Origin: an uncultured Chloroflexota bacterium
GTDB taxonomy: Bacteria; Chloroflexota; Anaerolineae; Anaerolineales; Villigracilaceae
DNA: 33,494 nt
Direction: 5' to 3'
Assembly (NCBI GenBank): GCA_903914955.1
Contig: CAIWRB010000019.1
Coordinates: 1 to 33,494, forward strand
Under the pieces are notes generated by a model. The model had not been told where the DNA came from. It saw only the letters and a list, made by a program, of their open reading frames with translations, and did no database searches. Positions 1,731-12,612 of the stretch are shown in pieces; within the stretch, counting starts at the first letter, position 1; every line of letters starts with the position of its first letter. A program made the translations under genes and the position numbers.

Positions 1731-2327
1731 TTATTGTTCGTTAGCGCGGCGTTCCGCTTCTAAAAATTCCTCGGGCGTATTTAGATTCCAAAAACATAAA
1801 CCTGACGGGTTCAATGATTTAATTTCATCAGGATTCAAAGTCCGTACTTTAACTTTTTGAAACCATGAGACGACCTTCCATTGATCCGCGGCGATTGCTG
1901 ATTCGATCGCAGGCAGACAACTTTCGCGGCGATATAATGCGTGGAATGGTTCATAGCCTTCGTCAGTTTTTGCGATGACGACATCCAAATCTTCCTCGAG
2001 TATTAGGCTGTGCGCACCTTCGAAGAATTTTGTGCTGGCGAAGGGCATGTCGCAAGCCACCACCGCCACCAGCGGAGAATTGGCAGACGCGATGGCAGTA
2101 TAGAGTCCGCCCAAAGCGCCACGCCCCGGCTTTAGGTCAGCTGCGAGGTGGAGATTAAGGAAAGCATATTCGGCGGGACGATTCGTCGTTACAATGATCT
2201 CATCTGCAATTGGAGTCAACCGTTCGATCACACGTTGAATGAGCGGCCTGCCAAGAAAAAGTTTTAAGGCTTTATCCTCGCCCATGCGTGAGGATGCGCC
2301 GCCCGCTTGAATGACTACAGTTATCAT
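1731..2327 (-). CDS. mobA: Molybdenum cofactor guanylyltransferase (MobA-like)
   Basis: The 198-residue product starts with a nucleotidyltransferase signature (VIQAGGASSRMGEDKAL, residues 5-21) in which Gly-Gly and Lys bind the GTP phosphates. It continues with LIQRVIERL, the GRGALGGLYTA block and VACDMPF, the metal-binding Asp motif. MobA transfers GMP from GTP to molybdopterin to make the guanine dinucleotide cofactor. The start was placed at 2327 because family members begin a few residues before the signature; an upstream in-frame extension of 28 residues would run into the divergent gene. No Shine-Dalgarno precedes it, but TATAAT sits at -12 to -7, as expected for a leaderless mRNA. No other molybdopterin biosynthesis genes are adjacent, so the molybdoenzyme served is unknown. 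Confidence 0.88.
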   Translation of the reverse strand: MITVVIQAGGASSRMGEDKALKLFLGRPLIQRVIERLTPIADEIIVTTNRPAEYAFLNLHLAADLKPGRGALGGLYTAIASANSPLVAVVACDMPFASTKFFEGAHSLILEEDLDVVIAKTDEGYEPFHALYRRESCLPAIESAIAADQWKVVSWFQKVKVRTLNPDEIKSLNPSGLCFWNLNTPEEFLEAERRANEQ

Positions 2328-2340
2328 GGATATATTATAG
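2328..2340. promoter_or_regulatory. 13-bp divergent intergenic region with -10 box
   Basis: Only 13 bp separate the start codons of mobA (minus) and amrS (plus). On the minus strand TATAAT (2334-2339) is placed exactly for transcription to begin at or next to the mobA ATG. On the plus strand only poorer hexamers are present (TATATT at 2331-2336). Any -35 elements would lie inside the opposite gene. Confidence 0.55.
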
Positions 2341-3450
2341 ATGAGTTCACTGGCAAATGTATTGGATGATCTGACCGTTGAGGGAGAGCTGTATGAATCT
2401 CTTTCAGACAAAGAGGTGCGTTGCTATGCGTGCGGACATCGCTGCCTGATACGTGAAGGCAGGCGCGGAATATGTCAGGTGCGATTCAATTCGGATGGAA
2501 AGTTACGCGTGCCCTGGGGATATGTGGCCGCTTTGCAAAGCGACCCAATTGAGAAGAAACCTTTTTCACATGTGCTGCCCGGCTCGAACGCGTTGACGTT
2601 TGGAATGTTGAACTGCGATTATCACTGCCCTTATTGCCAAAATTTTATAACTTCGCAGGCATTGCGTGACCCGTCTTCTGATATTGCGGGGCAGTTTGTT
2701 AGAAAGATAACGCCTGTTCAAATAGTGGAATATGCAAAAAGAACAAATGCAAAAGTGGTTGTCTCTTCATACAACGAGCCGCTAATTACAAGTGAATGGG
2801 CTGTTGAGATATTCAAACAGGCAAAGTCAAATGGATTGATGTGTGCTTATGTATCCAATGGAAATAATACTCAAGAAGTGATGGAGTATATACGCCCGTA
2901 TATTGATGCATATAAGATCGACCTGAAATGTATGAGCGAAAAAAACTATCGCACTCTCGGCGGGACATTGCAAAACACGTTGGATGGGATCAAACGTGCA
3001 CGCGATCTTGGGTTATGGGTGGAAGTGGTTACTCTGGTGATCCCTGGTTTCAATGATTCAAACGAAGAGTTATGGGATGCAGCGCGTTTTCTCGCAAATT
3101 TATCTTTGGATATTCCCTGGCATGTGACGGCTTTTCATAAGGATTATAAAATGACCGCGCCTGAAAATACAGACTCTAAAACATTGATCCGCGCGGCTGA
3201 GATCGGGCGTGAAGCGGGCTTGAGATATGTATACGCGGGGAATTTACCGGGCAATGTCGGAGAGTATGAAACTACCCATTGTCCACAGTGCAACAGTCAG
3301 CTTGTGAAGCGAAGCGGGTATATCATCCTGCAATATGAAATAACAGGTGAGGGGGATTGTCCAAACTGCGGTGAAAAGATCGCGGGGCTGTGGCATCCGC
3401 AAGTCGCACAGGTTTTGTTGAATCAGACGGGGCGGCCTGTGTCTTTGTAA
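2341..3450 (+). CDS. amrS: AmmeMemoRadiSam-type radical SAM enzyme
   Basis: The 369-residue protein has an N-terminal cysteine region (CYACGHRCLI and GICQVR, residues 28-46) followed by the radical SAM cluster motif CDYHCPYC (CxxxCxxC, about residues 92-99). It resembles the pyruvate-formate-lyase-activase-like member of the AmmeMemoRadiSam set, which is usually found with AMMECR1 and Memo family proteins; its reaction is not known. Neither partner is encoded in this window. The C-terminus adds a zinc-ribbon-like pair, CPQC and CPNC, near residues 315-345. It is divergent from mobA with 13 bp between start codons and has no clear Shine-Dalgarno. No in-frame ATG follows closely, so the start at 2341 is kept with some doubt. 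Confidence 0.88.
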   Translation: MSSLANVLDDLTVEGELYESLSDKEVRCYACGHRCLIREGRRGICQVRFNSDGKLRVPWGYVAALQSDPIEKKPFSHVLPGSNALTFGMLNCDYHCPYCQNFITSQALRDPSSDIAGQFVRKITPVQIVEYAKRTNAKVVVSSYNEPLITSEWAVEIFKQAKSNGLMCAYVSNGNNTQEVMEYIRPYIDAYKIDLKCMSEKNYRTLGGTLQNTLDGIKRARDLGLWVEVVTLVIPGFNDSNEELWDAARFLANLSLDIPWHVTAFHKDYKMTAPENTDSKTLIRAAEIGREAGLRYVYAGNLPGNVGEYETTHCPQCNSQLVKRSGYIILQYEITGEGDCPNCGEKIAGLWHPQVAQVLLNQTGRPVSL

Positions 3451-5366: not shown

Positions 5367-5396
5367 ATGAGAGGCAGGAAATTTCCTGCCTCTCAT
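5367..5396 (+). other. Perfect 30-bp intercistronic palindrome
   Basis: ATGAGAGGCAGGAAA is followed immediately by its exact reverse complement, between the binding-protein stop and the permease Shine-Dalgarno. On the plus strand no T run follows, so it is unlikely to be a full terminator there. On the minus strand it is followed by TTTTTT. The likely role is mRNA 3'-end stabilisation or partial attenuation, giving more receptor than permease. Confidence 0.75.
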
Positions 5397-10207: not shown

Positions 10208-11956
10208 CTAGCGCGGGCCTTTTCTGCCAAATTGACGTTCCAGTGCATCCACAGACAAATGGATCATCGTGGGTCTGCCGTGTGGACAGGTGCGCGGAGA
10301 GGCGCAGGCTTCGAGATCATTTAACAACGCGCGCTGTTCCTCGCTCGTCAGAGTCTGCCCGCCTTTAACAGCCAGCCGCTTGCAGACGCGCGCCGCGAGT
10401 TTCGCTTCAACCTCAGTCTGTAATGGCGCTTCATCCTCTTCAAAATCTTCAATCAGCGCGCGCAAAGCAGATGATGGATCGCCGCCTGCAAACAATACTG
10501 GCATGGCGCGTACTTGAAATGTATTCGCGCCAAATTCTTCCACTTCAAAACCAAAATGATTCAAGAATGGCAACTGTGATGTCAACATCTTCGCAGATTG
10601 CGGAGGCAGAGTCACAACTTCGGGCGTGAGTAATGACTGAGATGGAATACTCTTCTGGTCATGCTGTGCCATCAACTTTTCGAACAAAACGCGTTCATGT
10701 GCCGCATGTTGGTCAATGAGATATAAGCCGTCTGGTCCCTCGGCGACGATATAAGTAGATCCAATTTGACCGATGAGCCTTAATAAAGGAACACTGGCGA
10801 ATGTTGCAGGCTGTAAGTTTGAAGATTTGCTCTCCACGTTCTGCGACGGATCATTGTTTACTGATAAATCATCACTTGAAAGCGCCGCACTCCAGTCGAT
10901 CCCCACTTCCCTTCTTTCCATCGAAGCGGAGCGCGCGCCCCATAATTGAGGTGAGACAGACGCCACGGGCGTATATGCCAATAATGCTTTGCGCGCTGAA
11001 CGTTGCATAAAACTAAAAATCTTATCCTGACTTCTAAACCGCACTTCCGCTTTTGTGGGATGTACATTCACATCCACATCCTCGGGAGCGATCTCCAGAA
11101 ATAAAGCTGTAAGCGGATAACGCCCTACCATCAATAAGGTGTGATACGCCTGCAAGAGGGCCGTGGTCAAAGAGAATTCCTGCACCCAGCGCCCGTTGAC
11201 AAAGAATGTAATTTCTTTTCGATTGGAGCGTGTCAATGATATCGGGCTGATGAATCCTGTCAGAGATAAACCCTCCTCGATCGCCATTACTTCGAGCATT
11301 TGTTTCGCCACATCCACGCCATAAAGCGCGGCGAGTATGGAACGCCTGTCGCCGTCGCCCGCAGTTTGCAAAGTGGATTGATTGCCATCGGTTACTTTGA
11401 AGCGCACATTCGGATATGCCAGCGCATAGCGTGTGATCAAGGAATCGATCGCGCGTCTTTCGGTGACATCTGTTTTCAAGAATTTCAAACGCGCGGGTAC
11501 ATTGTAAAATAAATTTTCCACGCGCAGAACTGTGCCGATGGGTGCACCAATTTTTTCAACTTTACCAGAAACGCCGCCATCTATTTTTAGGCGCGCACCT
11601 TCTTTTGCGGATTCAATGCGCGAGGTGATGGTCATCTGTGAGACGGATCCGATCGAAGCGAGAGCTTCGCCTCGGAAGCCCAATGTTGAAATATGGAACA
11701 GGTCTTCGGACTGAATCAGTTTTGAGGTCGCGTGACGCGCAGCGGCCAACTCCAATTCGTTCGCTGGAATCCCATGTCCATCATCTGCCACCTCGATCAG
11801 AATTCTGCCTGCATCCACAATTGAAATGGAAATGTTTTTCGCGCCGGCATCCAGCGCGTTTTCAGTTAATTCTTTCACGACAGAAGCGGGGCGTTCAACG
11901 ACCTCGCCCGCCGCGATTTGCGAAGAGACCTCGGAAGATAAAAGACGAATAGGCAT
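10208..11956 (-). CDS. mutL: DNA mismatch repair protein MutL
   Basis: The 582-residue protein has the GHKL ATPase domain with ELTENALDAG (29-38), VADDGHGI and STLGFRGEALASIGSV, then a transducer domain, a variable linker rich in Ser/Asn, and a C-terminal dimerisation domain. The latter contains DQHA(x)2E(x)4E at 415-426, the endonuclease motif of MutL proteins from bacteria without MutH, and a late CPHGRP motif. It therefore should nick DNA itself after MutS recognition. MPIRLL is the usual family start, so the ATG at 11956 was chosen over one seven codons upstream. TATAAT at -12 to -7, inside a perfect palindrome shared with the divergent gene, suggests a leaderless mRNA. No mutS is in the window. 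Confidence 0.96.
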   Translation of the reverse strand: MPIRLLSSEVSSQIAAGEVVERPASVVKELTENALDAGAKNISISIVDAGRILIEVADDGHGIPANELELAAARHATSKLIQSEDLFHISTLGFRGEALASIGSVSQMTITSRIESAKEGARLKIDGGVSGKVEKIGAPIGTVLRVENLFYNVPARLKFLKTDVTERRAIDSLITRYALAYPNVRFKVTDGNQSTLQTAGDGDRRSILAALYGVDVAKQMLEVMAIEEGLSLTGFISPISLTRSNRKEITFFVNGRWVQEFSLTTALLQAYHTLLMVGRYPLTALFLEIAPEDVDVNVHPTKAEVRFRSQDKIFSFMQRSARKALLAYTPVASVSPQLWGARSASMERREVGIDWSAALSSDDLSVNNDPSQNVESKSSNLQPATFASVPLLRLIGQIGSTYIVAEGPDGLYLIDQHAAHERVLFEKLMAQHDQKSIPSQSLLTPEVVTLPPQSAKMLTSQLPFLNHFGFEVEEFGANTFQVRAMPVLFAGGDPSSALRALIEDFEEDEAPLQTEVEAKLAARVCKRLAVKGGQTLTSEEQRALLNDLEACASPRTCPHGRPTMIHLSVDALERQFGRKGPR

Positions 11957-11980
11957 TGGCAGATTATAATCTGCCAATGC
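11953..11980. promoter_or_regulatory. Perfect 28-bp palindrome: bidirectional leaderless promoter of mutL and the HAD gene
   Basis: GCATTGGCAGATTA is followed directly by its exact reverse complement. The outer ends contain both start codons: mutL on the minus strand at 11956 and the HAD gene on the plus strand at 11977. The centre contains two overlapping -10 boxes, TATAAT at 11965-11970 (plus) and at 11963-11968 (minus), each at exactly -12 to -7 of its gene. The 20 bp between the start codons leaves no ribosome site. TTGGCA/TGCCAA half-sites flank the -10 boxes and could also bind a dimeric regulator. Confidence 0.75.
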
Positions 11981-12612
11981 GATTCACAACTATTTTCTTC
12001 GATCTTGACGATACACTTTATCCATCGAATGCGGGTTTATGGAAAGCCATCAAAAACCGCATGAGCGATTATATGCGCGAGCGTATGGGTATTCCCGAAA
12101 AAGATATCGGGCCTTTGCGTGAAAAATATTATTTGCAATACGGCACGACCATGCGCGGTTTGCAGAAACATCATGAAATTAATGCAGATGATTTTCTGGC
12201 ATATGTACATGATTTGCGTCTGGAAGATTATCTGACTCCCGATCCACAGCAACGCTCGATTATCGCATCACTCCCAACCCGCAACCTGATATTTACCAAC
12301 GCTGACATTCCCCACGCTGAAAGAGTGCTCGCCGCGCTCAACCTGCGTGATCTATTCTCCACCATTGTGGATGTGAACAGTGTCGCGCCATACTGCAAGC
12401 CCATGCCTGAGTCATTTGAGATCGCCATGAAAATTGCAGATGAGAGCGATCCTGCGCGCTGTGTGATGATCGATGATCTCAAACGCACCACGCGCGTCGC
12501 ACAGGAAGCGGGCATGTTCAGTATTTTATTTGGCGCGACAGCCGTCGACGAAGACGCCAGCGCAAGCCTTTCAGACTGGGGCGGCTTGGTGAATATATTG
12601 GCGGCGCAATAA
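11977..12612 (+). CDS. HAD-family hydrolase, pyrimidine 5'-nucleotidase-like
   Basis: The 211-residue protein carries haloacid dehalogenase motif I as FFDLDDTLY (nucleophile Asp9, general acid Asp11), motif II Thr in IFTNA, the Lys motif in CKPMPESFE and motif IV in MIDD. The cap region with YGTTMRGLQKHH resembles the yeast Sdt1/Phm8 type pyrimidine 5'-nucleotidases, which dephosphorylate UMP and CMP. Substrate assignment is by resemblance only. The start is taken at 11977 because the motif begins a few residues later and because TATAAT lies at -12 to -7; an upstream ATG would fall inside mutL. A small membrane-protein gene follows after 2 bp. Confidence 0.85.
   Translation: MRFTTIFFDLDDTLYPSNAGLWKAIKNRMSDYMRERMGIPEKDIGPLREKYYLQYGTTMRGLQKHHEINADDFLAYVHDLRLEDYLTPDPQQRSIIASLPTRNLIFTNADIPHAERVLAALNLRDLFSTIVDVNSVAPYCKPMPESFEIAMKIADESDPARCVMIDDLKRTTRVAQEAGMFSILFGATAVDEDASASLSDWGGLVNILAAQ

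Follow-up and report, generated by a model that had tools for sequence, protein, structure and literature searches.

The window analysed here, the whole 33,494-nucleotide stretch from contig CAIWRB010000019.1 of an uncultured Chloroflexota bacterium, carries a divergent pair of genes encoding the mismatch repair protein MutL and a HAD-type pyrimidine 5'-nucleotidase (Table 1). An initial annotation of this DNA had placed both start codons inside one perfect 28-bp palindrome, with TATAAT at -12 to -7 on each strand. The sequence and a repeat finder bear this out: GCATTGGCAGATTATAATCTGCCAATGC is a perfect palindrome, in which all 14 base pairs match with no gap at the center, and both start codons lie within it, that of mutL as CAT at positions 11954 to 11956. 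The two ATGs are separated by 20 bp, and this interval holds two copies of TATAAT that overlap by 4 bases.

Table 1. Features of the mutL/HAD intergenic region and the flanking genes (window coordinates).
Feature	Position	Strand	Remarks
Perfect 28-bp palindrome	11953..11980		Repeat finder; perfect arms observed in the window's species only
Shared core ATTATAAT, formed by two -10 boxes that overlap	11963..11970		TATAAT on both strands
TATAAT, -12 to -7 of the HAD gene	11965..11970	+	65 of 75 loci have it exactly there
TATAAT, -12 to -7 of mutL	11963..11968	-	65 of 79 loci have it exactly there
mutL, 582 aa; ATG at 11956, predicted transcription start	10208..11956	-	TIGR00585, 537.9 bits (cut-off 180)
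HAD pyrimidine 5'-nucleotidase, 211 aa; ATG at 11977, predicted transcription start	11977..12612	+	TIGR01993, 189.9 bits (cut-off 142.9)

The symmetry of the palindrome is forced in the CAT/ATG ends (3 pairs) and in the overlapping -10 boxes (4 pairs), leaving 7 pairs free. When the left arm of one genus member was combined with the right arm of another, 6 of 6 arm pairs were obtained in 2 of 420 combinations. Perfect palindromes of at least 28 bp are not rare in this DNA, with four in 133 kb of the genome's own sequence (the mutL/HAD palindrome included) and three in 400 kb of the relative G020. The length of the mutL/HAD palindrome alone is therefore unremarkable, and what is remarkable is its placement at both start codons. 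The pattern CAT-N6-ANTATANT-N6-ATG was found at a single place in the 4.4-Mb genome, and its reversed control was found at none. A perfect 30-bp palindrome, ATGAGAGGCAGGAAATTTCCTGCCTCTCAT, is also present at window positions 5367 to 5396, between two plus-strand reading frames.

We searched 37 genomes of the genus for the locus, and the divergent mutL/nucleotidase pair was present in all of them. The initial annotation had described the 20 bp between the start codons as one two-fold symmetric control element shared by both genes. The sequence supports a shared, symmetric -10 box there, and the spacing is exactly 20 bp in 21 of the 37 genomes, 21 bp in one, and at least 39 bp in 15. All 21 loci with the 20-bp spacing contain the core ATTATAAT. 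Mirror pairing of their arms (6 positions per side) amounted to 53 of 126 pairs, compared with 52.1 expected from shuffled arms (s.d. 4.2, p 0.46), and only the window had 6 of 6 arm pairs. A second set, overlapping with the first, consisted of the 80 loci kept out of 124 found by a MutL search. These come from metagenome genomes, mostly labelled Anaerolineales, Anaerolineae, or Chloroflexi, with one Candidatus Villigracilaceae; one locus (L281) is without a MutL start, leaving 79, and the HAD gene was found in 75. Among them, 31 loci have the 20-bp spacing, the commonest ATG-to-ATG distance (31 of 75), and all 31 contain ATTATAAT, with perfect arms in none.

In the 80-locus set, an exact N6 separates the box from the mutL ATG at 65 of 79 loci and from the HAD ATG at 65 of 75, and both spacings are exact at 57 of 75. 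L284, whose MutL frame is broken, was scored as a miss. This locus was excluded from the tree described below and from the mutL side of the information profile. In that profile, built from 78 mutL and 75 HAD promoters, the -12 to -7 columns held 1.1 to 1.9 bits per base and the other upstream columns 0.04 to 0.94. The focus of information in the -10 columns, together with arm pairing at the shuffled level, indicates that the conserved anatomy on each strand is the box, six freer bases, and the start codon, and that the palindrome as a whole is not the conserved unit. The initial annotation had looked to relatives for conservation of the palindrome; the core is kept at every 20-bp genus locus, but the arms are not kept as an inverted repeat. 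Among individual loci, L228 and L243 have 1,127 and 1,214 bp between mutL and the HAD gene and still hold both boxes at the exact spacing. In L014 (genome G001), the HAD frame ends after 14 codons while the shared promoter and mutL look intact, representing either a pseudogene or an assembly error.

The TTGGCA/TGCCAA arms had also been suggested as a possible operator, and the perfect 28-bp symmetry with its TTGGCAG/CTGCCAA arms is what a site for a dimeric regulator of both genes might look like. However, the genus-wide arm statistics led us to reject this interpretation, as the inverted-repeat arms of a transcription factor operator would be kept in orthologous promoters and these are not. 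The window contains one copy of the full operator-like site, with no second TTGGCAG-N2..14-CTGCCAA, and the core-centered pattern occurs at the one genomic place given above. Moreover, the nearest relative among the 80-locus set, L206 (97% identity over MutL), is without the palindrome and has a different right arm. An operator function of the whole palindrome is thus highly improbable. We give equally little credence to a function at the RNA level, in which the palindrome within read-through transcripts would fold up and occlude the AUG, leaving only the leaderless mRNA to be translated. The window copy does fold stably (-22.6 kcal/mol, z -7.7), but of four relatives folded only L211 was stable (-18.7 kcal/mol, z -4.0) and three were near their shuffles (z -0.9 to 0.2). 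As a general feature, the RNA hairpin was therefore rejected.

The same layout recurs at other gene pairs. A search of 61 genomes for CAT-N6-ATTATAAT-N6-ATG returned 37 sites in 30 genomes, and the reversed control returned none. This set shares genomes with the 80-locus set, and the two are hence not independent; one genome (G040) lacked a MutL match, and G042 (whose match misses the N terminus) and G053 were left out, giving 58 mutL loci with the HAD gene in 42. Twenty-one of the 37 sites are mutL/HAD, and 14 of the other 16 lie between divergent reading frames of at least 119 aa that start exactly at the pattern ATGs. The two exceptions are G025 and a site with a single 15-aa frame (G035:C93). 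Eight of the 14 pairs look alike, each with a methyltransferase divergent from an aminoacyl-tRNA editing protein, as judged by Pfam for one pair and from the N-terminal sequences for the other seven. Further pairs, from the five of 14 on which Pfam was run, are PAPS reductase/methyltransferase, cobalamin adenosyltransferase/VWA7_N, and CofD/acetyltransferase. Changing the spacing to N5 (18 bp) gave matches in none of the 61 genomes and changing it to N7 (22 bp) gave matches in four, with no two-gene site, and the ATTATATAAT form of the pattern was likewise found in none of the 61.

Across 400 genomes of the phylum, the pattern was found in 18 and the reversed control in one. A single family (f1) holds 12 of the 18, of which 11 have divergent frames at the site (mutL/HAD or editing protein/methyltransferase) and one, G025, does not. 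Three of the phylum-wide matches come from other genera of this family and are mutL/HAD again. The remaining six genomes, in families f41 and f99, showed no two long frames at the one locus examined per genome (the best being 214 and 63 aa), and three of these loci are perfect palindromes.

Signals for leaderless transcription were also evaluated away from the locus. In 400 kb of G020, TATAAT stood at exactly -12 of in-frame ATGs six times compared with a mean of 0.43 at other offsets, and TANNNT stood there 23 times compared with 8.6. For the window's own genome, the sample comprised 152 kb, 18 kb of which was N. There, TATAAT at -12 was found solely at the mutL/HAD palindrome, in a count that does not contain a mobA-like gene (ATG at 2327); TANNNT was not enriched (7 versus a mean of 4.9), and TANAAT was (4 versus 0.46). 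Since the palindrome alone has the exact box in that count and TANNNT shows no enrichment, leaderless genes appear to be a minority in this genome. This agrees with the 4.7 given for Chloroflexi (row entry, 4 of 12 genomes) in a table of PMC3160421, which counts the phylum, with a TAtaaT pattern, among those that have leaderless genes of this kind. At the mutL/HAD pair, the 6 bp between box and ATG is too short for any Shine-Dalgarno sequence. The best -35-like matches at spacers of 15 to 19 bp score 3 of 6 for the HAD gene and 4 of 6 for mutL (spacer 15), and both lie inside the opposite gene. A distinct -35 element is thus not evident, and the strength of the promoter is uncertain.

A second tight divergent pair, with 13 bp between its ATGs, is located at window positions 2325 to 2343. 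The mobA-like gene on the minus strand has TATAAT at exactly N6, the only other TATAAT-N6-ATG in the window, and the best mobA models score below their cut-offs. It faces a plus-strand gene (ATG at 2341) for an AmmeMemoRadiSam-type radical SAM protein, for which TIGR04337 scores above its cut-off.

The box, its spacing, its conservation, and its recurrence at other gene pairs can all be read directly from the sequences, and they suggest that the mutL/HAD element is very probably a bidirectional leaderless promoter made of two overlapping Pribnow boxes in ATTATAAT, with a start-to-start register of 21 bp. RNA polymerase with the housekeeping sigma factor would sit on ATTATAAT in either orientation. 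Reading rightward, it would begin the nucleotidase mRNA at the A of the ATG at 11977; reading leftward, it would begin the mutL mRNA at the A of the ATG at 11956. With initiation seven bases past each box, each mRNA would start at the A of its own AUG, so that both would be leaderless, with starts 21 bp apart. We infer transcription from these predicted starts and leaderless translation of both products, and the two orientations would exclude each other sterically. Selection would then act on the box, the 6 bp, and the ATG of each side, and not on the mirror symmetry of the arms. Of the symmetric leaderless promoter in the initial annotation, the shared -10 box with leaderless-type spacing in both directions is retained, being present in 21 of 37 genus genomes and at other gene pairs. 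In contrast, the palindrome as the conserved unit is not, given the arm statistics and the 70-bp spacer of L206. Points against the shared promoter are the 16 of 37 genus loci without the 20-bp form, the apparent minority of leaderless genes in the window's genome, the -35-like matches of no more than 3 and 4 of 6, and the single reversed-control match among the 400 genomes of the phylum.

The overlap could also be compact packing without consequence, the two genes having independent, adjacent one-way leaderless promoters. The anatomy would be the same as that of the shared promoter, and confidence in one reading does not exclude confidence in the other; we put it at a little short of an even chance. 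In 26 of the 36 relatives with spacers of at least 39 bp (80-locus set), both boxes are kept at the exact spacing, indicating that sharing is not needed, and the available text of PMC12825309 reports basal activity of such promoters in Escherichia coli without competition. However, packing alone does not readily account for the exact 20-bp form at several unrelated gene pairs or for 20 bp being the commonest spacing. According to the same text, a shared -10 box excludes two polymerases at once; the basal activity of five E. coli bidirectional promoters was too low for polymerases to compete, and activating one direction repressed the other through competition. By analogy, the inverse coupling of mutL and the nucleotidase proposed in the initial annotation is possible but not to be expected by default.

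The relatives with long spacers show what the split form of this promoter looks like. In the genus, the usual split spacer reads ATTATA-CCCA, a hairpin, and then GGGTATTA-TATAAT. Changes between the fused and split forms are scattered over the tree, with at least 10 in the genus set, where the 21-bp locus was grouped with the long spacers, and at least 12 in the 80-locus set, where it was grouped with the 20-bp form and where the MutL tree was built quickly and many of its forks are weak (21 of 76 inner ones open). This distribution indicates that lineages switch repeatedly between one fused box and two separate boxes, which in the genus are usually parted by a hairpin.

The near-sister L206 carries the split form and is identical to the window over 40 bases on the mutL side and over the initial 59 bases of the HAD gene. 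Between these flanks, there is a 50-bp difference in the spacer and a difference at two adjacent bases of the right arm, both of which in the window are toward perfect symmetry. This is what a template switch would leave if the left arm had been copied onto the right while the hairpin spacer was removed. We nevertheless regard such a scar as an unlikely origin of the perfect arms, as L211, with a 20-bp spacing, is one base short of a perfect palindrome, so that a single ordinary substitution may suffice, and a two-state model on the MutL tree favors a 20-bp ancestor at the node joining the window and L206 (P 0.89). The same model gave P of 0.86 for the genus and 0.23 for the family node, and it fitted far better with insertion only (log likelihood -40.5) than with collapse only (-56.2), compared with -38.5 when both were free.

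The hairpin of the relatives belongs to an interspersed palindromic repeat with many dispersed copies per genome. Related repeats (E ≤ 0.001) are scattered through 35 of 46 genus genomes, with none found in the window's genome, and G033 has 31 matches, probably a lower bound as 19 of 140 candidates were scored there. The view that the hairpin is not a repeat family had come from a pattern search with mixed matches, in which the control matched in 10 of 37 genomes, and was rejected when DNA queries revealed the family. In L169 to L188, a dispersed palindromic repeat of about 60 to 95 bp carries TATAAT-like sequence at either end; N6-ATG comes after the end box in L183 and N5-ATG in L185, both candidate starts only. 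Recent transposition into the mutL spacer is argued against by the L206 genome, where no place besides its own mutL spacer matches the insert below an E value of 0.8. It is also argued against by a mean mutual identity of 0.71 among 11 mutL inserts versus 0.54 with 15 copies from elsewhere. This comparison is biased, since the greater length of the elsewhere copies reduces their identity, since they had been chosen for their similarity to a mutL insert, and since 10 of the 20 fetched are from G033. Insert identity and MutL identity were weakly correlated (r 0.33, p 0.056). On whether the split or the fused form came first, the results point both ways.

Since TATA is self-complementary, two facing Pribnow boxes always carry it as a direct repeat. 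Slippage from one copy to the other would yield ATTATAAT and fuse the two promoters without the loss of either. We infer fusion at the common TATA, which would account for the predominance of the 20-bp spacing. Tentatively, and with rather more doubt than belief, we propose that in this group, divergent leaderless promoters move back and forth between shared and split states. Slippage across TATA, aided by the hairpin, would fuse the boxes in one step, and a palindromic element would split them again, so that the mutL pair, having changed at least 12 times on the tree of the 80-locus set, would have coupled and uncoupled mismatch repair and a nucleotide pool enzyme in alternation.

If transcripts confirm the predicted starts, the element would be a natural minimal two-way promoter, 26 bp long with both start codons, whose spacing is set by the leaderless starts. 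The relatives would then form a natural series in which the same genes stand under one shared box or two separate boxes, making coupling versus buffering by a shared -10 box testable through comparison. Mismatch repair dosage affects the mutation rate, which lends the mutL case added interest.

The closest known systems are bidirectional promoters, described for E. coli as well as for other prokaryotes (Warman/Grainger; PMC12825309 and PMC10268837), in which, as the available texts describe, a single -10 element serves both strands and is used in either orientation but not both. Core ATTATAAT is likewise one -10 element readable on both strands. In the portion of PMC12825309 available, divergent starts are 10 to 23 bp apart in the five promoters studied and the common registers are 18, 10, and 23 bp with small variations allowed, so that the 21 bp predicted for mutL/HAD would be a variant and not an exclusion. 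The reciprocal positions would differ, with -12/-9 and -11/-10 predicted at mutL/HAD and -11/-7 in the known promoters as far as those texts go. In contrast to the latter, the predicted starts at mutL/HAD are the start codons themselves, which would make both mRNAs leaderless, and a separate -35 is not evident. Leaderless genes as described in the accessible parts of PMC3160421 and PMC12340547 carry a TATAAT-like box 12 bp ahead of the start codon, which is exactly its position at both genes of the mutL/HAD pair. Neither main text contains the word "divergent" or "bidirectional", whereas here two predicted leaderless genes would share one box. The Deinococcus report (PMC12340547, available text) that a -10 motif in a suitable position can serve as a promoter, to which a -35 adds strength, would fit the lack of an evident -35 element at mutL/HAD. 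The nearest precedent is in Mycobacterium tuberculosis (PMC3898074), where a legend describes juxtaposed divergent promoters as common and depicts the divergent pair prpD/Rv1129c with leaderless mRNAs; the available text does not state that one -10 box serves both genes. We found no description of two bacterial leaderless genes on one -10 box in the open-licence texts consulted. Bidirectional promoters and leaderless genes are each of a known kind, and within that literature, it is their combination, with a 21-bp register and toggling, that looks new.
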